The notes under the pieces were generated by a model. That model was not told the DNA's origin. It saw nothing but the letters and a program-made list of their open reading frames with translations, and did no database searches. Shown here piece by piece: positions 28,005-36,209 of a stretch of DNA of 64,000 nt. A program made the translations under genes and the position numbers. Origin of the DNA: Flavobacterium sp. ALD4 (GTDB lineage Bacteria > Bacteroidota > Bacteroidia > Flavobacteriales > Flavobacteriaceae); contig NZ_PJBJ01000030.1 of the NCBI RefSeq assembly GCF_002836475.1, forward strand, positions 1,116,001 through 1,180,000, given 5' to 3'. The first letter of the stretch is position 1; the number at the start of each line of letters is the position of its first letter.

Positions 28005-30215
28005 ATGAGAAAAATTATAATCACCTTATTATTAGGGTTTTCAGCAGTGCTTCACGCACAAAATTCAGTCTCAGGTACGGTAACGGATATGACAAATCAG
28101 CCTGTAAGCGGCGTATCGGTGTATGCGCCTGAGCTACATAAAGGAACTACGACTGATGAAAACGGAAAATTCAGTTTGACGAACCTTCCCAATGGCACCG
28201 TAAAGTTGAGTTTTACTTCCGTAGGGTTCATAACTCAAAATAAAACTATAAAAGGACTTGAAAAAGAAACCCCACTTGATATAATACTAGAAGAAACCGT
28301 TTTTCAAATGGATGCAGTAATCGTATCTACTGCTTTCAATAAAATACAATCACAAAATGTGATGAAGGTAGAGCATAAAACCATTAAGGAATTACAGCAA
28401 AAAGGAACAGCAACCTTAATAGAAGGATTGGCAACTATTCCCGGAGTATCTCAGGTTTCTACTGGAACATCGATAGGGAAACCGGTTATCCGTGGTTTAA
28501 GCGGAAACCGCGTTTTAGTCTATTCACAGGGGGTTCGAATGGAAAACCAGCAGTTTGGAGACGAACATGGTTTAGGGTTAAATGATGCCGGAGTAGAAAG
28601 CGTTGAGGTAATCAAAGGTCCTGCGTCTCTATTGTATGGTTCAGATGCCCTGGGCGGTGTTTTGTATTTTAATCCGGAGAAATTTGCAGATGCGAATACT
28701 TTTAAAGCTAATTTCAGTCAGAAGTTGTTTTCTAATACTTTAGGGAGTAACTCTTCTTTGGGGTTAAAAACGTCTACTGAAAACTGGAAATTTATTGCCA
28801 GAGGAAGTTACAATACGCATTCTGATTATCGAATATCGGGAGGGGATCGAGTAACCAATACCCGTTACAATGAAACGGATTTTAAAACTGGAATTGGCTA
28901 TAGTAACTCCAGCTTTTCTTCGATTCTTCGATACAATTATAACAAATTAGATTTAGGAATTCCAGAGGATGGAATAGCAGAACAAACGTCAAGTAAAAAC
29001 ACAACATTTCCGCGGCAAGGGGTTTTCAACCATCTGTTGAGTTTGAATTCAGTGATCTATCTAAAAGATTCAAAGCTGGATTTTGATTTAGGATATGTAG
29101 CTAATGACCGAAGCGAATTCGAGGATAGTGATGTAGCAGGTCTACGTATGAAACTGAAAACTTTTAATTACGATGCGAAGTACCATTTACCTAAAATGGG
29201 TAAACTGGAATCAATTTTGGGAATTCAAGGAATGCACCAAACCAATTCTAATTTAGGAGAGGAATACTTGATCCCAGATGCTACCACAAATGATTTTGGA
29301 GTTTTTGGAACTATTAATTACGAATGGGACAACAACAGTGCACTTCAGGCAGGTTTGCGTTTTGATAATAGAAAAATAGCTACAACTGAAAATGGAACAG
29401 TGGGAGAAGAAGGTTATTTTAAAGCCGTCGATAAATCATTCGATAGTTTTAATGCTTCCTTAGGGTACAAAACGAATCTTGCTGAGGATTTGACTTTAAG
29501 ACTGAACCTGGCTTCAGGATTTAGGGCGCCTAATTTAGCCGAATTGACTTCCAATGGAGTTCACGAAGGAACCAACCGCTATGAAGTAGGTAACAGTGAC
29601 TTGAAAACAGAACAAAATGTACAGTCTGATATTAATTTAGAATACAACAATAGTCATTTTGAGTTTTTTGTAAATGGTTTTTACAATCACATCAATAATT
29701 ATATTTATACGGCGCCTACAGGAACTCAACGTGACAATAATGATGTTTTTGATTATATTCAAAATAATGCCAAATTATACGGGGGCGAAATAGGATTACA
29801 TTTTCACCCACATCCTTTAGACTGGTTGCACTACGAAACTAGTTTTGAAACTGTTACTGGTAAGAAACAGAATGGGGACTATTTGCCGCTGATTCCAGCT
29901 AATAATTGGAGTAATACTATTAGAACCGAATTCAGAATCAAGAACTGGTTTGAAGCGGGTTATGCTACTTTGAATTTTACTAGCACATTCAATCAAAATA
30001 ATGTTAGCGGATTTGAAACAGAATCCAATGGATATACTTTGGTTAATCTTGGTTTTGGAGGAACCGTAAAACTTGGTGAAACGGTATTCGACATCAATTT
30101 AAACGGAAATAATTTGTTTGATAAAAGTTATATTGCTCATCTTTCTCGTTTAAAAAATGATGGAATTCCAAACATAGGACGCAATATCGTCCTTGGGGTA
30201 AATTTCGATTTATAA
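28005..30215 (+). CDS. TonB-dependent outer-membrane receptor
   Basis: 736-aa receptor. Signal peptide (residues 1-18, ends LHAQ), then a carboxypeptidase-regulatory-like domain (about 20-105, VSGTVTDMTNQPVSGVSVYAP with GTTTDENGKF), a plug domain (about 115-225) with GLSGNRVLVYSQGVRMENQQFG and VIKGPASLLYGSDALGGV, and a C-terminal 22-strand barrel. The substrate is probably a metal complex (zinc, copper or a siderophore-like carrier): the plug is of the ZnuD/BtuB-like kind and the gene before it encodes a His/Cys-rich protein. No TonB-box or regulator is assigned. It is followed by a clear terminator. Confidence 0.9.
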   Translation: MRKIIITLLLGFSAVLHAQNSVSGTVTDMTNQPVSGVSVYAPELHKGTTTDENGKFSLTNLPNGTVKLSFTSVGFITQNKTIKGLEKETPLDIILEETVFQMDAVIVSTAFNKIQSQNVMKVEHKTIKELQQKGTATLIEGLATIPGVSQVSTGTSIGKPVIRGLSGNRVLVYSQGVRMENQQFGDEHGLGLNDAGVESVEVIKGPASLLYGSDALGGVLYFNPEKFADANTFKANFSQKLFSNTLGSNSSLGLKTSTENWKFIARGSYNTHSDYRISGGDRVTNTRYNETDFKTGIGYSNSSFSSILRYNYNKLDLGIPEDGIAEQTSSKNTTFPRQGVFNHLLSLNSVIYLKDSKLDFDLGYVANDRSEFEDSDVAGLRMKLKTFNYDAKYHLPKMGKLESILGIQGMHQTNSNLGEEYLIPDATTNDFGVFGTINYEWDNNSALQAGLRFDNRKIATTENGTVGEEGYFKAVDKSFDSFNASLGYKTNLAEDLTLRLNLASGFRAPNLAELTSNGVHEGTNRYEVGNSDLKTEQNVQSDINLEYNNSHFEFFVNGFYNHINNYIYTAPTGTQRDNNDVFDYIQNNAKLYGGEIGLHFHPHPLDWLHYETSFETVTGKKQNGDYLPLIPANNWSNTIRTEFRIKNWFEAGYATLNFTSTFNQNNVSGFETESNGYTLVNLGFGGTVKLGETVFDINLNGNNLFDKSYIAHLSRLKNDGIPNIGRNIVLGVNFDL

Positions 30216-30237
30216 AAAAACAACAGTATATAATGAG

Positions 30238-30267
30238 GCGCTATCCGAAAGGGTAGCGCTTTTTTTA
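30238..30267 (+). terminator. Rho-independent terminator after the TonB receptor
   Basis: 9-bp stem GCGCTATCC / GGGTAGCGC closed by a GAAA tetraloop, followed by eight T. Confidence 0.92.
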
Positions 30268-30634: not shown

Positions 30635-30671
30635 TATCTTTGTTTAACAGATACACGAAGAGGTTAAACAA
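30635..30671 (+). promoter_or_regulatory. Promoter and inverted repeat of the photolyase operon
   Basis: TATCTTTG (30635-30642) matches TAnnTTTG. Overlapping its end, TTGTTTAAC (30640-30648) is repeated in inverted form as GTTAAACAA (30663-30671): a perfect 9-bp dyad with a 14-base spacer and half-site centres 23 bases apart, about two helical turns. A second dyad, GTATCT/AGATAC (30634-30639, 30649-30654), nests in it. The placement over and just after the start point suggests a repressor site. Confidence 0.55.
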
Positions 30672-30730
30672 TATTATTTTCTAATTAAAATAGAAGACAG
30701 ATTGAATAACAGCAATAAAAATCAAGTAGA

Positions 30731-32221
30731 GTGCTTAAAACTGCAATAAATATTGTTTGGTTCAAAAGAGATTTACGTTTCGTAGATAACGAAGCTTTAT
30801 TTGCTGCGCATAATTCGGGATTACCTTTGTTGTTCGTTTATTTTTTTGAACCTACGGTAATGAATTACGACGACGCTGATGTTCGGCATTGGCGTTTTAT
30901 TTATGAATCTGTTCAAGACTTACAAGCCAAGTTAAATACCGCAAATTCTAAAATATATTTTTTTCACAGTGAAGTAGAGCCTGTTTTTGACGAGTTGCTA
31001 AAACGCTATGATATAAACACGGTTTTTTCGCATCAAGAAATTGGTAATAAGCTCACGTTCGACAGAGATTTAGCCATGAAAGCTTTTTTTCAAAAAAACA
31101 ATATCCTCTGGAAGGAGTCACAAATGCATGGTGTTATAAGAAGGTTGAAGTCAAGACAGCATTGGGATAAACGATGGGAAGATGTTATGCGTGCCGAACC
31201 CAAAATTATTAACGAAGCGGATTTAAAATTAATAAAACTGGAAGATGCTTTTTATGATTCGGTAAGGGGAGAAAACCTTCCTGAGTGTGTTACAACCAGA
31301 AATAAAGATTTTCAGCAAGGAGGGGAACATCTTGCTTGGCGCTATTTAGATAGCTTTGTAAAAGAACGCTATGTCAATTATAGTAAGCATATTTCTAAAC
31401 CGGCATTGAGTAGGAAAGGCTGTAGCCGCTTGTCGCCCTATTTGGCATACGGGAACATCAGTATGCGTATGATTTATCAATACACGAATCAGCATTATGA
31501 GAATTCTAAAAACAAACGAGCGATTCTCAATTTTGTATCTCGACTCCATTGGCATTGCCATTTTATACAAAAATTTGAAGATGAATGTAGGATGGAATTT
31601 GAAAATGTAAATAGAGCGTATGATGTGCTAATTAAGCCAAAAAACGAAGACTACATAAAAGCCTGGCAAGAAGGAAGAACGGGGGTGCCTATAGTAGATG
31701 CCTGCATGCGATGCTTAGTTGCAACGGGATATATTAATTTCAGGATGAGGGCTATGGTGGTTTCGTTTTTTACTTTCAATTTATGGCAAGATTGGCGGGA
31801 GCTGCATTTTTTGGCGAGACAATTTTTGGATTACGAACCAGGAATTCATTACCCACAAGTTCAAATGCAATCAGGAACAACAGGAATTAATACTATTAGA
31901 ATTTATAGCCCAATAAAAAATTCTGAAGATCACGATCCGGATGGTGTTTTTATAAAACAATGGCTGCCTGAATTGGCTGGAATTCCGGTGAATCTAATTC
32001 ATGAGCCTTGGAAATTAAATATGATTGAACAACAATTTTATGATTGCGAAATAGGTATTGACTATCCTGCTCCCATTGTAAATATTGAAGAAACTAGAAG
32101 GTATGCCAGTGACATTGTCTGGAGTTTTCGTAAAAAAGACGAAGTGAAAGAGGAGGGGAAAAGAATTTTGAAAAAGCATGTTTCTAATCCGAATCGGAAA
32201 ACAAGAAAAACAAAACTGTAA
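30731..32221 (+). CDS. Photolyase/cryptochrome-family flavoprotein, classical type
   Basis: 496-aa FAD protein with the N-terminal Rossmann antenna domain ([16 protein letters not shown] near residues 8-23) and the helical FAD domain (WRYLDSF near 204, [10 protein letters not shown] near 270, [12 protein letters not shown] near 315, [25 protein letters not shown] near 396, of which DPDG.FIKQW is diagnostic). DNA repair or blue-light sensing is the family role; whether this one repairs cyclobutane dimers cannot be told by eye. The start is GTG at 30731; no ATG is available upstream in frame. First gene of a five-gene operon; its stop overlaps the next ATG (TAATG). Confidence 0.85.
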
Positions 32222-32955
32222 TGACTATTTTTTTAAAAGCAAACTGGGAAAACATCATAATGGCTAATTATGAAATTGATCCTAAAATACTACTTCCTTT
32301 CTTACCTAAAGGAGTGGAGCTTGATTTGTATAATGGTAAAGCGTACATGAGTCTGGTGGGGTTTATGTTTAAGAAAATCAAGCTATTCAATGTTCCAATC
32401 CCATGGTTTGGCAATTTTGAAGAAATCAATTTACGATTTTATGTAGTTCGAAAAGAGGGTGGCACATTAAAGCGGGGTGTGGTTTTTATAAATGAAACCA
32501 TCCCGTATCCCATTGTGGCTTGGATGGCCAATAAATTATACAAGGAGCATTACACCGTTGTCCCGACGAGGCATGAAATAACTAGGGATACTAAAAGTCA
32601 AAAAGTAAATTTTGAATGGCTCTTAAATAAAAAATGGAATAGTATTTATGTAGAAGCAACTGTAGCGTCTAAGGTGATGAAAAGCCCCTCTTTAGAGAAA
32701 TTCATATTTGAACATTATTATGGATACACTAAAATTGACGAAAATAATACGGAAGAATATAAATTGCAACATCCGAGCTGGCGTGTAAATCAAGTGCTAG
32801 AGTATAAAATTGATTGCGATTTTAAAGCAATGTATGGTGATGCTTTTGAGGTCTTAAATGATACAGAGCCAGAAGCAGTTTTTATAGCAGAAGGTTCAGC
32901 AGTGGGCATAGAATGGAAAAGAAACCGCTTAAATCTAGATGATGAAAGGAGTTAA
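32221..32955 (+). CDS. DUF2071 (YqjF-like) protein
   Basis: 244-aa soluble protein of the DUF2071 family. Typical features are the start [25 protein letters not shown]-like block (recognisable: [19 protein letters not shown]), [10 protein letters not shown] near 41, and ELNLR-like EINLRFYV near 71. Biochemical function is unknown for the family. It is embedded between two photolyase-type genes with start/stop overlaps on both sides, so it is surely cotranscribed with them, and the family turns up in such clusters in related bacteria as far as I recall. Confidence 0.85.
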
Positions 32956-33079
32956 AAAACAAAACTTACCAACTAAAATATGCTTGGTATGCAACAAACC
33001 TTTCACTTGGCGGAAAAAATGGGAAAAGGTTTGGGATGAGGTAAAATATTGTAGTGATAAATGCAGAAGTAACAAATAA
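32942..33079 (+). CDS. DUF2256 zinc-ribbon small protein, 45 aa
   Basis: Short gene starting [19 protein letters not shown] and ending DKCRSNK. It has two metal-binding pairs, Cys14-X2-Cys17 and Cys37-X3-Cys41, with the family core [21 protein letters not shown]2256 proteins are short Cys-rich proteins repeatedly seen next to photolyase/cryptochrome-like genes; their function is unknown. The ATG lies 14 bases inside the DUF2071 gene and the stop is one base before the next ATG, which fits tight translational coupling. A structural or assembly role for the Fe-S photolyase that follows is a guess. Confidence 0.88.
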
Positions 33080-33080
33080 T

Positions 33081-34619
33081 ATGGCAAATAAGACTTTAAG
33101 ATTAATTCTTGGCGATCAACTAAATAGCAATCATTCTTGGTTTAAAAACACGGATGACGCGGTTACTTATGTTTTGATGGAAATTCGAACAGAGACTGAT
33201 TATGTAGCGCATCATATTCAAAAAGTAGTCGGGACCTATTCCGCAATGAGAAATTTTAGCGAAGCGCTAAAGTTAAATAATCATCAGGTTATTTATATTA
33301 AACTAGTGGATGAAAATAACTTACAGTCATTTGAAAAAAACATTCAAAGCCTGATTGTAAAACATAATTTCACTCATTTTGAGTACCAACTTCCAGATGA
33401 ATACAGGGTTGATGTGGTTTTGACAAATCTATGTAACTCGATTTCAATCGAACATTCAGCAGTAGATACGGAACATTTTTTCACCTCTCGTGTGGAGCTA
33501 GCACAGTTCTTTGAAGGGAAGAAAACTTTTGTGATGGAAAACTTTTATCGCATGCTCCGGAAAAAGCACAATGTTTTAATGGATGGGAATAATCCAGTAA
33601 CAGGAAAATGGAACTACGATAAAGAGAATCGTAAAAAGTTACCTAAAAATCATAAACCGACGCCGCCGTTAGTTTTTGATAATGATGTTTCGGAGGTTTT
33701 TGAGGAAATAAAGAAAACAGATATTAAAACCATCGGAAATGTTGATGCTACTAATTTTGTTTGGCCAGTGAACCGAGAACAATCGTTGCAGTTGCTCGAT
33801 TTTTTTCTTGCCGAGTGTTTGCCTTTATTTGGTAGTTATCAAGATGCGATGTCGCCGAACGAATGGTCTTTATATCATGCGCGAATTTCATTTTCGATGA
33901 ATATAAAAATGATTTCACCACAAGAAGTAATTGCTAGTGCAATACAGGAATGGGAAAAGCGACCTGACGAAATTGAATACAATCAATTAGAAGGGTTTGT
34001 ACGTCAGATAATAGGATGGCGTGAGTATATGCGGGGAATTTATTGGTTGAAAATGCCAGATTATGCTAGCATGAATTTTTTCAACAATAAAGAAAAGTTA
34101 CCAGATTGGTTTTGGACCGGGAAAACTAAAATGCATTGTTTAAGAGATACTATAAATCAGTCTTTAAACTATGGATATGCACATCATATTCAGCGATTAA
34201 TGATAACGGGAAATTTTGCGCTTTTAGCAGGCATTAATCCTGACGAATTAGACGCTTGGTATCTCGGGATTTACATTGATGCTATTGAGTGGGTAGAAAT
34301 TACAAATACGCGTGGGATGAGTCAATTTGCAGATGGCGGGATCGTAGGGACAAAGCCGTATGTAAGTTCGGCATCTTATATTAATAAAATGAGCCATTAT
34401 TGTGGCGATTGTTTTTATGATAAAGAAGTAAAAACGGGTGAAAAAGCGTGTCCGTTCAATAGTTTGTATTGGAATTTTTATAATAAAAATGAGGATAAAT
34501 TAGCGAAAAACCCAAGAATTGGAATGATGTATAATGTTTGGAATAAGATGAAGCCCGAATCAAAAGTGGCTCTATTAGAACAAGCTGATTATTATCTAAA
34601 AAAAATAAATGAATTATGA
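33081..34619 (+). CDS. Fe-S bacterial cryptochrome/(6-4) photolyase (FeS-BCP type)
   Basis: 512-aa protein of the PhrB/FeS-BCP family, bacterial (6-4) photolyases with a [4Fe-4S] cluster and FAD. All four expected cluster cysteines are visible: Cys353 (MHCLRD), Cys441 and Cys444 (YCGDC) and Cys457 (KACPF), with the same spacings as in Agrobacterium PhrB. N-terminal LILGDQLN and VLMEIRTE belong to the antenna domain that binds a lumazine in known members. I take ATG 33081 (MANKTLRLILGDQ); the frame opens at 33054 inside the DUF2256 gene. It overlaps the next gene by 4 bases. Confidence 0.92.
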   Translation: MANKTLRLILGDQLNSNHSWFKNTDDAVTYVLMEIRTETDYVAHHIQKVVGTYSAMRNFSEALKLNNHQVIYIKLVDENNLQSFEKNIQSLIVKHNFTHFEYQLPDEYRVDVVLTNLCNSISIEHSAVDTEHFFTSRVELAQFFEGKKTFVMENFYRMLRKKHNVLMDGNNPVTGKWNYDKENRKKLPKNHKPTPPLVFDNDVSEVFEEIKKTDIKTIGNVDATNFVWPVNREQSLQLLDFFLAECLPLFGSYQDAMSPNEWSLYHARISFSMNIKMISPQEVIASAIQEWEKRPDEIEYNQLEGFVRQIIGWREYMRGIYWLKMPDYASMNFFNNKEKLPDWFWTGKTKMHCLRDTINQSLNYGYAHHIQRLMITGNFALLAGINPDELDAWYLGIYIDAIEWVEITNTRGMSQFADGGIVGTKPYVSSASYINKMSHYCGDCFYDKEVKTGEKACPFNSLYWNFYNKNEDKLAKNPRIGMMYNVWNKMKPESKVALLEQADYYLKKINEL

Positions 34620-35905
34620 AAACAGCGATAGTGTGGTTTAAAACAGATTTACGATTATATGATAACGAAGCACTTGTAAAAGCAATCGCACAAGGCGAAA
34701 AAGTGTTACCTGTGTATTGCTTTGATGATGCAGATTTTGTAACAACTCGCTATGGTTTTAAAAAAACGGGTAATTACAGAGCCCAATTTTTATTGGAGTC
34801 GTTACAAGATTTAGACGCTAATTTGCGTAAAATAGGCTCGGGCCTGATGATTTTAAGAGGGAAGCCAGAAGAGGAAATTCCCAAAATTGTAGCAGAATAT
34901 AAAGTCTTAAAAGTTTTTGCTAAACGCGAAGTAGCATATGAAGAAAAGGAAACAGAAACTTTGGTTCAAACAGCCCTTTTTAAATTGCGTTGTGAACTAG
35001 AAACCTTTAGCAGTAGTACTTTGTATCATGCAGAAGACTTGCCGTTTGCTATAAAAGACATTCCAGATGTTTTTACTAATTTTAGAAAAAAAACAGAACT
35101 AGATGCTACAGTAAGAGCTGTTTTTGATAGCCCACTAGCGATGACCTCTCCAGATATTCCTGAAATGATTTTACCTACTTTACAAGAGTTAGGCCTGGAA
35201 TTTTCTGAAATAGACTCGCGTGCCGCAATTCAATTCAAAGGAGGAGAAACGGCAGCAATGAAGCGATTAAATAATTACTTTTTTGAAACGAAAAATCTCT
35301 CTGTCTACAAAGAAACCAGAAATGGAATGGTGGGCGAAGGGTACTCTTCAAAATTTTCGGCTTGGTTAGCTATGGGCTGTATTTCACCTAGGACTATTTA
35401 TAAAGAAATAAGGGTATATGAAAATGAAAATGGGGCCAATGATTCCACGTATTGGTTGATTTTTGAATTATTATGGCGTGATTTCTTTCGCTTTATGTTC
35501 AAAAAATACCAGACTAAATTTTTCTTATATGCGGGTATAAAGGGCGAAAAAGAAAATTCAGAATCCTTGAGTAACAAACTGTTTTCACAATGGGAAAATG
35601 GTGCTACTCCTTCTGATTTTATCAATGCTAATATGATAGAATTGAAACAAACTGGTTTTATGAGCAATAGGGGTAGACAAAATGTGGCGAGCTATTTTTG
35701 TAATGAGCTCAATATGGATTGGCGTCTAGGAGCTGCTTATTTTGAATCTCAATTAATAGATTACGATGTTTGCAGTAATTGGGGCAATTGGGCTTACTTG
35801 GCGGGCGTGGGGAATGACCCAAGAAAACACCGTTATTTTAATATTGAAAAACAAGCGAATGATTATGATAAGGATAGGAGTTTCCGGGATTTGTGGTTGC
35901 AATAA
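34616..35905 (+). CDS. DASH-type cryptochrome/photolyase
   Basis: 429-aa flavoprotein of the CRY-DASH class. N-terminal IVWFKTDLRLYDNEAL; the DASH-typical VYCFDDADF..TRYGFKKTGNYRAQFLLESL region near 35-65 (diagnostic: GNYRAQFL.ESL); KFSAWLAMGCISPRTIY near 250; LLWRDFFRFM near 290; and TGFMSNRGRQNVAS and SNWGNWAYLAGVG near the end. CRY-DASH proteins repair dimers in single-stranded DNA. It lacks the usual C-terminal low-complexity tail. Overlaps the Fe-S photolyase gene by 4 bases (ATGA). Last gene of the operon; no clear terminator follows. Confidence 0.93.
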   Translation: MKTAIVWFKTDLRLYDNEALVKAIAQGEKVLPVYCFDDADFVTTRYGFKKTGNYRAQFLLESLQDLDANLRKIGSGLMILRGKPEEEIPKIVAEYKVLKVFAKREVAYEEKETETLVQTALFKLRCELETFSSSTLYHAEDLPFAIKDIPDVFTNFRKKTELDATVRAVFDSPLAMTSPDIPEMILPTLQELGLEFSEIDSRAAIQFKGGETAAMKRLNNYFFETKNLSVYKETRNGMVGEGYSSKFSAWLAMGCISPRTIYKEIRVYENENGANDSTYWLIFELLWRDFFRFMFKKYQTKFFLYAGIKGEKENSESLSNKLFSQWENGATPSDFINANMIELKQTGFMSNRGRQNVASYFCNELNMDWRLGAAYFESQLIDYDVCSNWGNWAYLAGVGNDPRKHRYFNIEKQANDYDKDRSFRDLWLQ

Positions 35906-36180: not shown

Positions 36181-36209
36181 ATTAATGCAAGAAAGCCAGA
36201 CAATTTGCT

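Follow-up and report, generated by a model that had tools for sequence, protein, structure and literature searches.

A five-gene photolyase operon of Flavobacterium sp. ALD4, led by a divergent photolyase/cryptochrome class and preceded by a palindromic site of a candidate light regulon

We analyzed a 64,000-nucleotide (nt) window, meaning the whole stretch of DNA examined here, from contig NZ_PJBJ01000030.1 of Flavobacterium sp. ALD4. Within it, five plus-strand genes at 30731-35905 form an operon that encodes three different photolyase/cryptochrome proteins, a DUF2071 protein, and a DUF2256 peptide. A sequence-only reading made beforehand had proposed the five-gene operon, the three distinct photolyase/cryptochrome proteins, and one coordinated unit, and all three proposals were supported. 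Nine of 80 related loci keep the gene order, and a regulon-type site at the promoter also occurs at carotenoid and photolyase genes. The lead gene, here called CRYX, falls outside the class to which that reading assigned it. The operon and its upstream flank comprise the following features.

30235..30262, plus strand: intrinsic-terminator-like hairpin that closes the upstream gene (12 pairs, 6 G-C, T-rich tail; consensus match only)
30635..30642, plus strand: Bacteroidota -7-like element TATCTTTG (consensus TAnnTTTG), from its sequence
30639..30671, plus strand: palindromic operator-like site TTTGTTTAAC-N15-TTAAACAA, 33 bp, overlapping the -7-like element
30731..32221, plus strand: gene 1 (CRYX), divergent photolyase/cryptochrome-fold class, 496 amino acids (aa), GTG start (PF00875 and PF03441)
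32221..32955, plus strand: DUF2071 protein, 244 aa, predicted acetoacetate-decarboxylase-like fold (PF09844, E 9.7e-50)
32939..33079, plus strand: DUF2256 Cys4 (zinc-ribbon-like) peptide, 46 aa (PF10013, E 3.8e-23)
33081..34619, plus strand: FeS-BCP, or prokaryotic (6-4) photolyase, 512 aa (PF04244, E 1.7e-74)
34616..35905, plus strand: CRY-DASH, 429 aa (TIGR02765, 557.9 bits against a cut-off of 317)

Gene 1 overlaps the DUF2071 gene by 1 nt, the latter overlaps the DUF2256 gene by 17 nt (14 nt with the second Met as start), and the FeS-BCP and CRY-DASH genes overlap by 4 nt. Overlaps of 1 to 14 bases had been proposed throughout, but the DUF2256/FeS-BCP junction is not an overlap because a 1-nt gap separates the two genes ahead of the FeS-BCP ATG at 33081. 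The layout suggests that all five genes lie on a single transcript. Position 30635, where the sequence-only reading began the unit, is base 1 of TATCTTTG, which resembles the Bacteroidota -7 consensus TAnnTTTG. The upstream gene, a TonB-type receptor named by eye, ends at 30215, and the terminator-like hairpin then sets the operon apart; the next downstream open frame begins at 36185. The arrangement is more than chance, because the same five genes recur in identical order in the 9 of 80 loci (with a TspO-like gene inserted in two, L073 and L075). The nearest loci, in F. hiemivividum and F. gillisiae, hold the same five genes at 85-86% protein identity. All five genes are under purifying selection, with ratios of nonsynonymous to synonymous differences per site (pN/pS) of 0.11-0.26 versus loci L058, L090, and L059, and silent sites are heavily diverged versus L058 and L090 (pS 0.40-0.71), for which pN/pS is 0.13-0.26 in all five genes.

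Both Pfam domains and the predicted fold place gene 1 in the photolyase/cryptochrome superfamily, and its AlphaFold model (predicted local distance difference test [pLDDT] 87.6, predicted TM score [pTM] 0.88) has a photolyase fold. Five NCBIfam class models matched gene 1, but it scores far under the cut-off of each, including those for class I (NF007955, 161.7 of 506 bits; TIGR03556, 141.1 of 884.6), CRY-DASH (TIGR02765, 150.7 of 317), and plant cryptochromes (TIGR02766, 145.5 of 603.85). Its best PDB sequence matches reach at most 147 bits and are spread over DASH, animal, plant, and cyclobutane pyrimidine dimer (CPD) enzymes. The model aligned with the 50 best-ranked photolyase/cryptochrome entries at Z 33.5-38 (Foldseek, VIA-align); the top-ranked solved folds, an archaeal photolyase (2e0i), the class III enzyme of A. 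tumefaciens (4u63), and a CRY-DASH (1np7), matched at Z 37-38 with a root mean square deviation of 2.4-3.0 over 417-454 residues and 24-28% identity. Because rows within Z 1 are tied, the structure search prefers no class.

Residues were counted in an alignment of 134 CRYX relatives, E. coli PhrB, 49 DASH proteins, and 26 class I proteins, at positions 274, 277, 306, 341, 342, 344, 345, 359, 372, 378, 382, and 384 of the PhrB crystal structure. The 134 sequences, all distinct and from three phyla (Bacteroidota, Pseudomonadota, and Deinococcota), comprised 25 rows from 26 Flavobacteriaceae-genus loci, 80 from genome contigs (metagenome assemblies in many cases), 19 from phylum-survey genomes, and 10 from plasmid records. 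Rows entered the set if they scored >200 by BLAST against two CRYX references, irrespective of the counted residues; a frame-broken copy (L032, in fragments of <250 aa) and two distant forms (L208 and L209) were left out. The 80 genome-contig loci were found via the signature peptides HFIQKFE and FLD[FY]EPGI, and the set is biased towards the CRYX class because these peptides flank counted positions. The genome-contig scan with the two peptides gave at least 579 encoding stretches, a figure that exceeds the number of loci, since both peptides can match one.

All 134 CRYX proteins have Arg in place of Glu274, Phe in place of Asn341, His in place of the flavin N5 partner Asn378, and Met in place of Trp384, and Met345 is replaced by Ala (127) or Ser (7). 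None of the four lesion-pocket residues that mark class I enzymes (Glu274, Asn341, Met345, and Trp384) is retained in any of them. The Trp triad 382-359-306 is also missing: position 382 is never Trp (L, I, F, V, T, M, or C, mostly the first four), and Trp306 survives in 3 proteins and is lost in 131, mostly to Lys. Retained in every protein are Trp277, Arg342, Arg344, and Asp372, with Trp359 in 133 of 134. All 26 class I rows are canonical at the counted positions, and the 49 DASH rows retain Glu274, Asn341, Asn378, and Trp382. The CRYX clade (25 rows, including two distant forms) had support of 99/95 in a tree of 43 rows that covered class I, DASH, FeS-BCP, and short forms and had no plant, animal, class II, or class III references. 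Compared with class I CPD photolyases (E. coli PhrB and the genome's own copy), CRYX is alike in the two-domain fold and in Trp277, Arg344, and Asp372, and differs in the replacement of the six residues Glu274, Asn341, Met345, Asn378, Trp382, and Trp384 and in the loss of Trp306 in most members.

By these residues, CRYX is a separate, divergent photolyase/cryptochrome class, set apart from both class I and DASH. The sequence-only reading had called gene 1 classical and given it a specificity for double-strand dimers. Neither claim was supported, because the defining residues are replaced in every member and a canonical class I enzyme is encoded elsewhere in the genome, on contig 27, behind crtI-crtB-crtZ and an SRPBCC gene (crtI and crtZ were named by eye, crtB by Pfam SQS_PSY). 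Gene 1 occurs in 27 of 120 Flavobacteriaceae genomes, its own included, and a single-protein scan of viral contigs for spread gave no match. The Arg/Phe/His/Met pattern was not found described in the photolyase literature searched, which included the available parts of PMC9649867, PMC7560933, PMC9498864, PMC9852545, PMC5241685, PMC11976125, and PMC9426592. A bacterial cryptochrome that bears comparison is V. cholerae Cry2 (VC1392), which is blue-light-induced and is called a CRY-DASH in PMC5241685. Compared by description only, Cry2 could be either a CRYX or a DASH. It is said to figure in Worthington 2003, and if Cry2 is a CRYX, the class would already have been purified there. The superfamily is among the best-studied groups of photoenzymes, yet members of this widespread, pocket-swapped bacterial class carry plain photolyase or FAD-binding labels. 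The class is a natural experiment on how particular residues govern flavin chemistry and the choice of lesion.

A plasmid search added a pointer to function. Seven Deinococcus plasmid records matched gene 1, at 35.8-39.5% identity across 97-98% of its length, and in each the match lies inside a gene annotated as uracil-DNA glycosylase. The two fusions examined, of 757 aa in D. proteolyticus and 773 aa in D. aetherius, each combine the Pfam domains DNA_photolyase, FAD_binding_7, and UDG, and are as follows.

L203, 4992-7265: CRYX-UNG fusion on a Deinococcus plasmid, with a family-1 uracil-DNA glycosylase, annotated as glycosylase alone
L204, 4995-7316: CRYX-UNG fusion on a Deinococcus plasmid, of the same composition and annotation

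Both retain the CRYX pocket residues, and the UNG part of the D. proteolyticus protein shows GQDPYH and HPSPLS. No description of a photolyase-UNG fusion was found in a literature search that was weak for subscription papers and judged by titles and the starts of abstracts. The fusion points to a light-linked base-excision step, and it is mainly because of this Rosetta-stone link to UNG that we prefer a DNA role for CRYX, which probably acts otherwise than by textbook repair.

The identities proposed for the other two photolyase genes were confirmed. Gene 4 has the DPRP domain and is a member of the FeS-BCP/prokaryotic (6-4) photolyase family (E 2e-166 to the V. cholerae enzyme 7ykn), and its Cys353, Cys441, Cys444, and Cys457 align with the cluster cysteines of 7ykn and of A. 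fabrum PhrB (4dja), from which it shows no notable difference. Gene 5 clears the CRY-DASH model by a wide score. FeS-BCP-family enzymes repair (6-4) products and CRY-DASH enzymes repair CPDs in single strands, and the two proteins here would do likewise. Among the PF04244 proteins of the other Flavobacteriaceae loci, 10 of 17 have the four cysteines and 7 of 17 have none; these seven cluster-less types (L031 9273-10751, L034, L035, L037, L040, L055, and L056) lie near CRYX and share 31-34% identity with the window protein. The iron-sulfur cluster of this family is described as having no known function (PMC12082625). A two-photolyase UV-B operon of Synechococcus PCC 7335 resembles the present one in that its photolyase genes overlap stop to start, and it differs in photolyase classes and partners (PMC9649867).

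Neighborhoods were compared in the 80 related loci, many of them truncated, which hold FeS-BCP in 52, DUF2256 in 46, DUF2805 in 35, DASH in 27, and DUF2071 in 11. Fifty-one of the 80 loci extend at least 3 kb to either side; the counts within 3 kb there are 34, 31, 24, 22, and 9, in the same order, and in 26 other Flavobacteriaceae-genus loci, FeS-BCP is found in 18 (one partial), DUF2256 in 17, DASH in 13, and DUF2071 in none. We also surveyed 148 Bacteroidota genomes that were at least 90% complete. DUF2256 occurred in 50 and PF04244 in 49, with 46 genomes having the two together (Jaccard 0.87; Fisher 8e-30, uncorrected for phylogeny); DASH exceeded its cut-off in 35 and had a Jaccard index of 0.63 with DUF2256. 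With two weak matches disregarded, 48 strong DUF2256 carriers remain, and every one of them has PF04244 or DASH. CRYX was present in 20 genomes, by a cut of E < 1e-80 that was set after seeing the gap from 1.1e-86 to 2.0e-45, and all 20 have both PF04244 and DUF2256. The tie between DUF2256 and FeS-BCP is not just linkage, because in 24 of the 46 genomes the two genes lie >10 kb apart or on different contigs, some of which are short.

DUF2256 has the consensus LPxKxCxxCxRPFxWRKKWExxWxxVKYCSxxCR (by eye, 25 rows). On plasmids, it directly follows or overlaps gene 1 in Salinivibrio and Tritonibacter and, by coordinates, lies ∼0.6 kb from gene 1 on three Novosphingobium plasmids. A strict photolyase neighborhood everywhere was ruled out by the plasmids, where a photolyase lies within 6 kb in 2 of 9 DUF2256 neighborhoods (see below). 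A role as an iron-sulfur loading factor is unlikely, given that 7 of 17 FeS-BCP-family proteins are without all four cysteines; DUF2256 is present at six of the seven cluster-less loci (L031, L034, L035, L037, L040, and L055). DUF2256 can now be tested as a partner of the family of prokaryotic (6-4) photolyases.

The DUF2071 model (pLDDT 85.4) has the fold of the acetoacetate decarboxylase superfamily (Foldseek E 6e-10, TMq 0.53-0.64), at 6-12% identity over 24 rows with E of ≤0.001. PMC4520260 also places PF09844 with this fold and reports that the Schiff-base Lys115 is not conserved in it. The same source links DUF2071 to “ygjF, mismatch-specific uracil DNA glycosylase,” likely through a mix-up of the names YqjF and YgjF, and this link was given no weight as a tie to uracil. 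The expectation that both DUF families keep company with photolyases in related genomes held for DUF2256, which tracks the FeS-BCP family across Bacteroidota, and half failed for DUF2071; with the family present at 11 of the 80 loci and at none of the 26 Flavobacteriaceae-genus loci, we rejected DUF2071 as a core partner. A literature search, weak for subscription papers, found no paper that connects DUF2256 or DUF2071 with photolyases.

The promoter region holds a further clue. The sequence GTATnTTTGTTTAAC lies upstream of the operon in the window and in L058, L059, and L090, followed by the inverted arm GTTAAACAA or a near form of it. In the 3,365,212 bases searched, TTTGTTTAAC-N8-24-TTAAACAA has two occurrences, one in this operon's promoter and one ahead of a DUF2452 gene, and a reversed control gave 0; with Y/R inner ends there are three exact places, and with up to two mismatches 23 strand hits (14 sites by our count; control, 0). 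The six sites with up to one mismatch all lie at or just upstream of predicted gene starts, namely those of this operon, DUF2452, CHRD, fasciclin, crtI-crtB-crtZ-SRPBCC-phr, and TetR_C_23-ABC1-DUF2805-SDR-FolE-SDR/DUF2867. A two-mismatch site overlaps the start of a 298-aa gene with MerR and B12-binding_2 domains that abuts crtI, and another precedes a second fasciclin gene. In 28 of 31 Flavobacterium genomes, sites were found at up to one mismatch (control, 11 strand hits over all 31), and 24 of 29 site loci adjoin MerR/crtI, SRPBCC-phr, DUF2452, flavin reductase, SDR, FolE, DUF2805, TetR_C_23, or fasciclin genes; one fasciclin match is weak (27%), and two pairs are the same site on both strands. 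A looser form of the site gave 50 sites in 45 of 166 loci, with 0 in a reversed control and in five Markov-shuffled sets; this is not a genome-wide rate, because the loci were fetched around photolyase genes.

Like LitR/CarH-type regulons, this set combines a palindrome at the promoter with a regulator gene next to its targets. The contig 27 protein, from one of two MerR_1 genes in the genome, has a MerR helix-turn-helix (MerR_1) and a B12-binding domain (B12-binding_2), and sites lie at each end of its gene (C27:50371, two mismatches; C27:51295, one). By eye, it shows W-x9-EH and ExHxxG, motifs of LitR/CarH-type B12 regulators, and its best NCBIfam match is CarH (E 1e-20). The site beside MerR-B12 and crtI recurs in L303, L308, L310, and L312. 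In PMC9758184, Pseudomonas class II LitR is a dark repressor that acts via T(G/A)TACA-N12-TGTA(C/T)A sites, and the P. putida LitR-type regulon includes phrB, cryB, and folE. The Pseudomonas PplR/PmlR2 regulons treated there are alike in having a MerR-B12 gene beside its targets, a palindrome at the promoter, and photolyase, cryptochrome/photolyase-family, folE, and SDR genes as targets; the candidate set here also includes CRYX, fasciclin, and CHRD genes. Dark-repression logic like that of LitR, with a different palindrome over the -7 element, is the simplest reading, and the common palindrome offers a way into what may be a B12-type light regulon of Bacteroidota.

Three side observations concern the sites. 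The contig 27 light cluster (L057, G000:C27:46000-65000) holds MerR-B12, crtI-crtB-crtZ, SRPBCC, and the class I photolyase on one strand and the TetR_C_23-ABC1-DUF2805-SDR-FolE-SDR operon on the other, with the same site. DUF2452 genes that carry the palindrome (L271 1035-1433, L300, and L322) often neighbor CRYX or DUF2805 elsewhere. The CHRD and fasciclin genes with the palindrome (G000:C1:388174, C23:395012, and C29:56921) are unexpected in a light regulon.

On balance, we lean towards a photoprotection operon that works like those regulated by LitR/CarH, with a lead CRYX that is a DNA-linked flavoprotein more likely to serve a noncanonical UV lesion than CPDs. In the dark, the contig 27 MerR-B12 protein would sit on the palindrome over the -7 element and block the promoter. 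In the light, its release would turn on this operon together with the carotenoid/class I photolyase operon and the FolE operon, FolE being GTP cyclohydrolase (folate precursor). We propose a different lesion for CRYX because it has no standard photoreduction chain and its CPD contacts are missing, and a uracil- or deamination-related one because of its fusion to uracil-DNA glycosylase in Deinococcus; CRYX may act on such a lesion or recognize it, and electrons for its flavin would come from a source other than the Trp triad. DUF2256 may be a companion peptide of the FeS-BCP family, DASH, and CRYX, with docking or folding more likely than cluster loading because it also stands beside cluster-less FeS-BCP relatives, and DUF2071 may be a lineage-specific add-on. 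A more daring version, which we regard as speculative and rather improbable, would make CRYX a hitherto unrecognized photo-enzyme class of Bacteroidota, Pseudomonadota, and Deinococcota with a rebuilt pocket (Arg, Phe, Ala, and Met), His at flavin N5, and no Trp triad. Its substrate would be UV damage ending in uracil, namely deaminated pyrimidine dimers or photohydrates of cytosine, and it would work with FeS-BCP and DUF2256 under B12-dependent light control.

Several observations weigh against the reading that we favor. The UNG fusion is confined to the seven Deinococcus records, and CRYX stands alone in the other loci seen. Two distant relatives outside the 134 deviate, with Met for Asn341 and Val for Trp384 in Marinobacter and Leu for Trp277 in Pseudorhodobacter. 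The association of DUF2256 with PF04244 takes no account of phylogeny, the genes are apart in about half of the genomes that have both, and the two plasmid neighborhoods with a photolyase (Vibrio and Sphingomonas, unannotated frames included) were found among nine picked from the top 23 rows of 136 records. Of the Flavobacterium sites, 5 of 29 adjoin none of the named families, and the site-bearing fasciclin and CHRD genes are not obviously photoprotective. The site here, TTTGTTTAAY-N14-RTTAAACAA, differs from the Pseudomonas LitR site (PMC9758184). The MerR-B12 protein gave no match at E 0.001 to PF02310, the second, Rossmann-type B12-binding domain of CarH, and we describe it as working like CarH rather than file it as CarH because it scores 74.2 bits against the curated cut-off of 400 (NF052513).

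The main rival for gene 1, which we hold to be somewhat unlikely, is a bacterial cryptochrome that does not repair DNA and instead serves as a light receptor or regulator, signaling to the other genes or proteins. Its cryptochrome-like loss of catalytic residues, its place at the head of the operon, and its company with FeS-BCP and DUF2256 in all 20 survey carriers would suit such a receptor, but the glycosylase fusion points to direct work on DNA, the Trp triad for cryptochrome photoreduction is missing, and the genome already has a candidate light regulator in MerR-B12. That gene 1 is instead an ordinary CPD photolyase for double-stranded DNA whose sequence changes are immaterial seems very improbable. 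Annotators often name its relatives deoxyribodipyrimidine photo-lyase, and the shared fold and the retained Trp277, Arg344, and Asp372 fit that name; set against these are the invariant replacements, the near-complete loss of Trp306, the scores far under the class I cut-offs, and the canonical class I enzyme already in the genome. A decaying pseudo-photolyase is hardly credible and is largely refuted by constraint: catalytic residues are lost and one copy is frame-broken, but pN/pS of gene 1 is 0.13-0.14 versus three relatives and the replacement residues are invariant over the 134 proteins. The broken copy (L032 7035-8495, in one Flavobacteriaceae genome) could be a real loss or a sequencing error.

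Regulation and the DUF proteins have rivals of their own. Another regulator might bind the palindrome, for example a stress regulator or the TetR_C_23 protein encoded first in the FolE operon; the unit would then answer UV or oxidative stress and not light via B12. TetR_C_23 genes with their own palindrome copy, the fasciclin and CHRD sites, arms spaced wider than in Pseudomonas LitR sites, and the missed CarH cut-off speak for it; we still think it a minority prospect, as the MerR-B12 gene, which has sites at both ends, lies directly next to crtI, and a site beside these two genes recurs in four further loci. That the two DUF proteins merely ride along in a light regulon, functionally unconnected with the photolyases, is unlikely. 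DUF2071 is indeed facultative, and 7 of the 9 DUF2256 plasmid neighborhoods have no photolyase gene, but DUF2256 tracks the FeS-BCP family even where unlinked and more closely than it does DASH, all of its strong carriers have FeS-BCP or DASH, and it abuts CRYX in Salinivibrio and Tritonibacter.

Beyond the five genes, 12 of the 26 other Flavobacteriaceae-genus loci (L035, L037, L041, L043, L044, L046-L051, and L055) mostly have a larger cluster in common, consisting of TetR, ABC1, flavin reductase, SDR/DUF2867, DUF2256, DASH, FeS-BCP, gene 1, F7, DUF2805, FolE, SDR, GPx, TspO, SRPBCC, and class I photolyase genes (FolE, GPx, and SDR named by eye). In V. pelagius, gene 1 lies near an annotated flavin reductase gene and a TIGR03643 gene; TIGR03643 and DUF2805 are the same family. 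Flavin reductase occurs in 17 of the 51 loci with 3 kb on both sides, which is suggestive and was not used as evidence. In the phylum survey, it lies within 7 kb of CRYX at 3 of 19 loci, compared with 2 of 29 FeS-BCP loci in genomes that lack CRYX and 4 of 14 unlinked FeS-BCP loci, and the idea of a dedicated CRYX reducer was dropped. The F7 family (L047 6655-7110, ∼145 aa, no Pfam match) adjoins CRYX in many clusters, often with its own copy of the palindrome. A short photolyase relative (∼370 aa, with an FAD domain and no N-terminal domain match) often lies directly upstream of CRYX (L031 5935-7053, L116, L118, L122, and L200) and may be of the NewPHL type.

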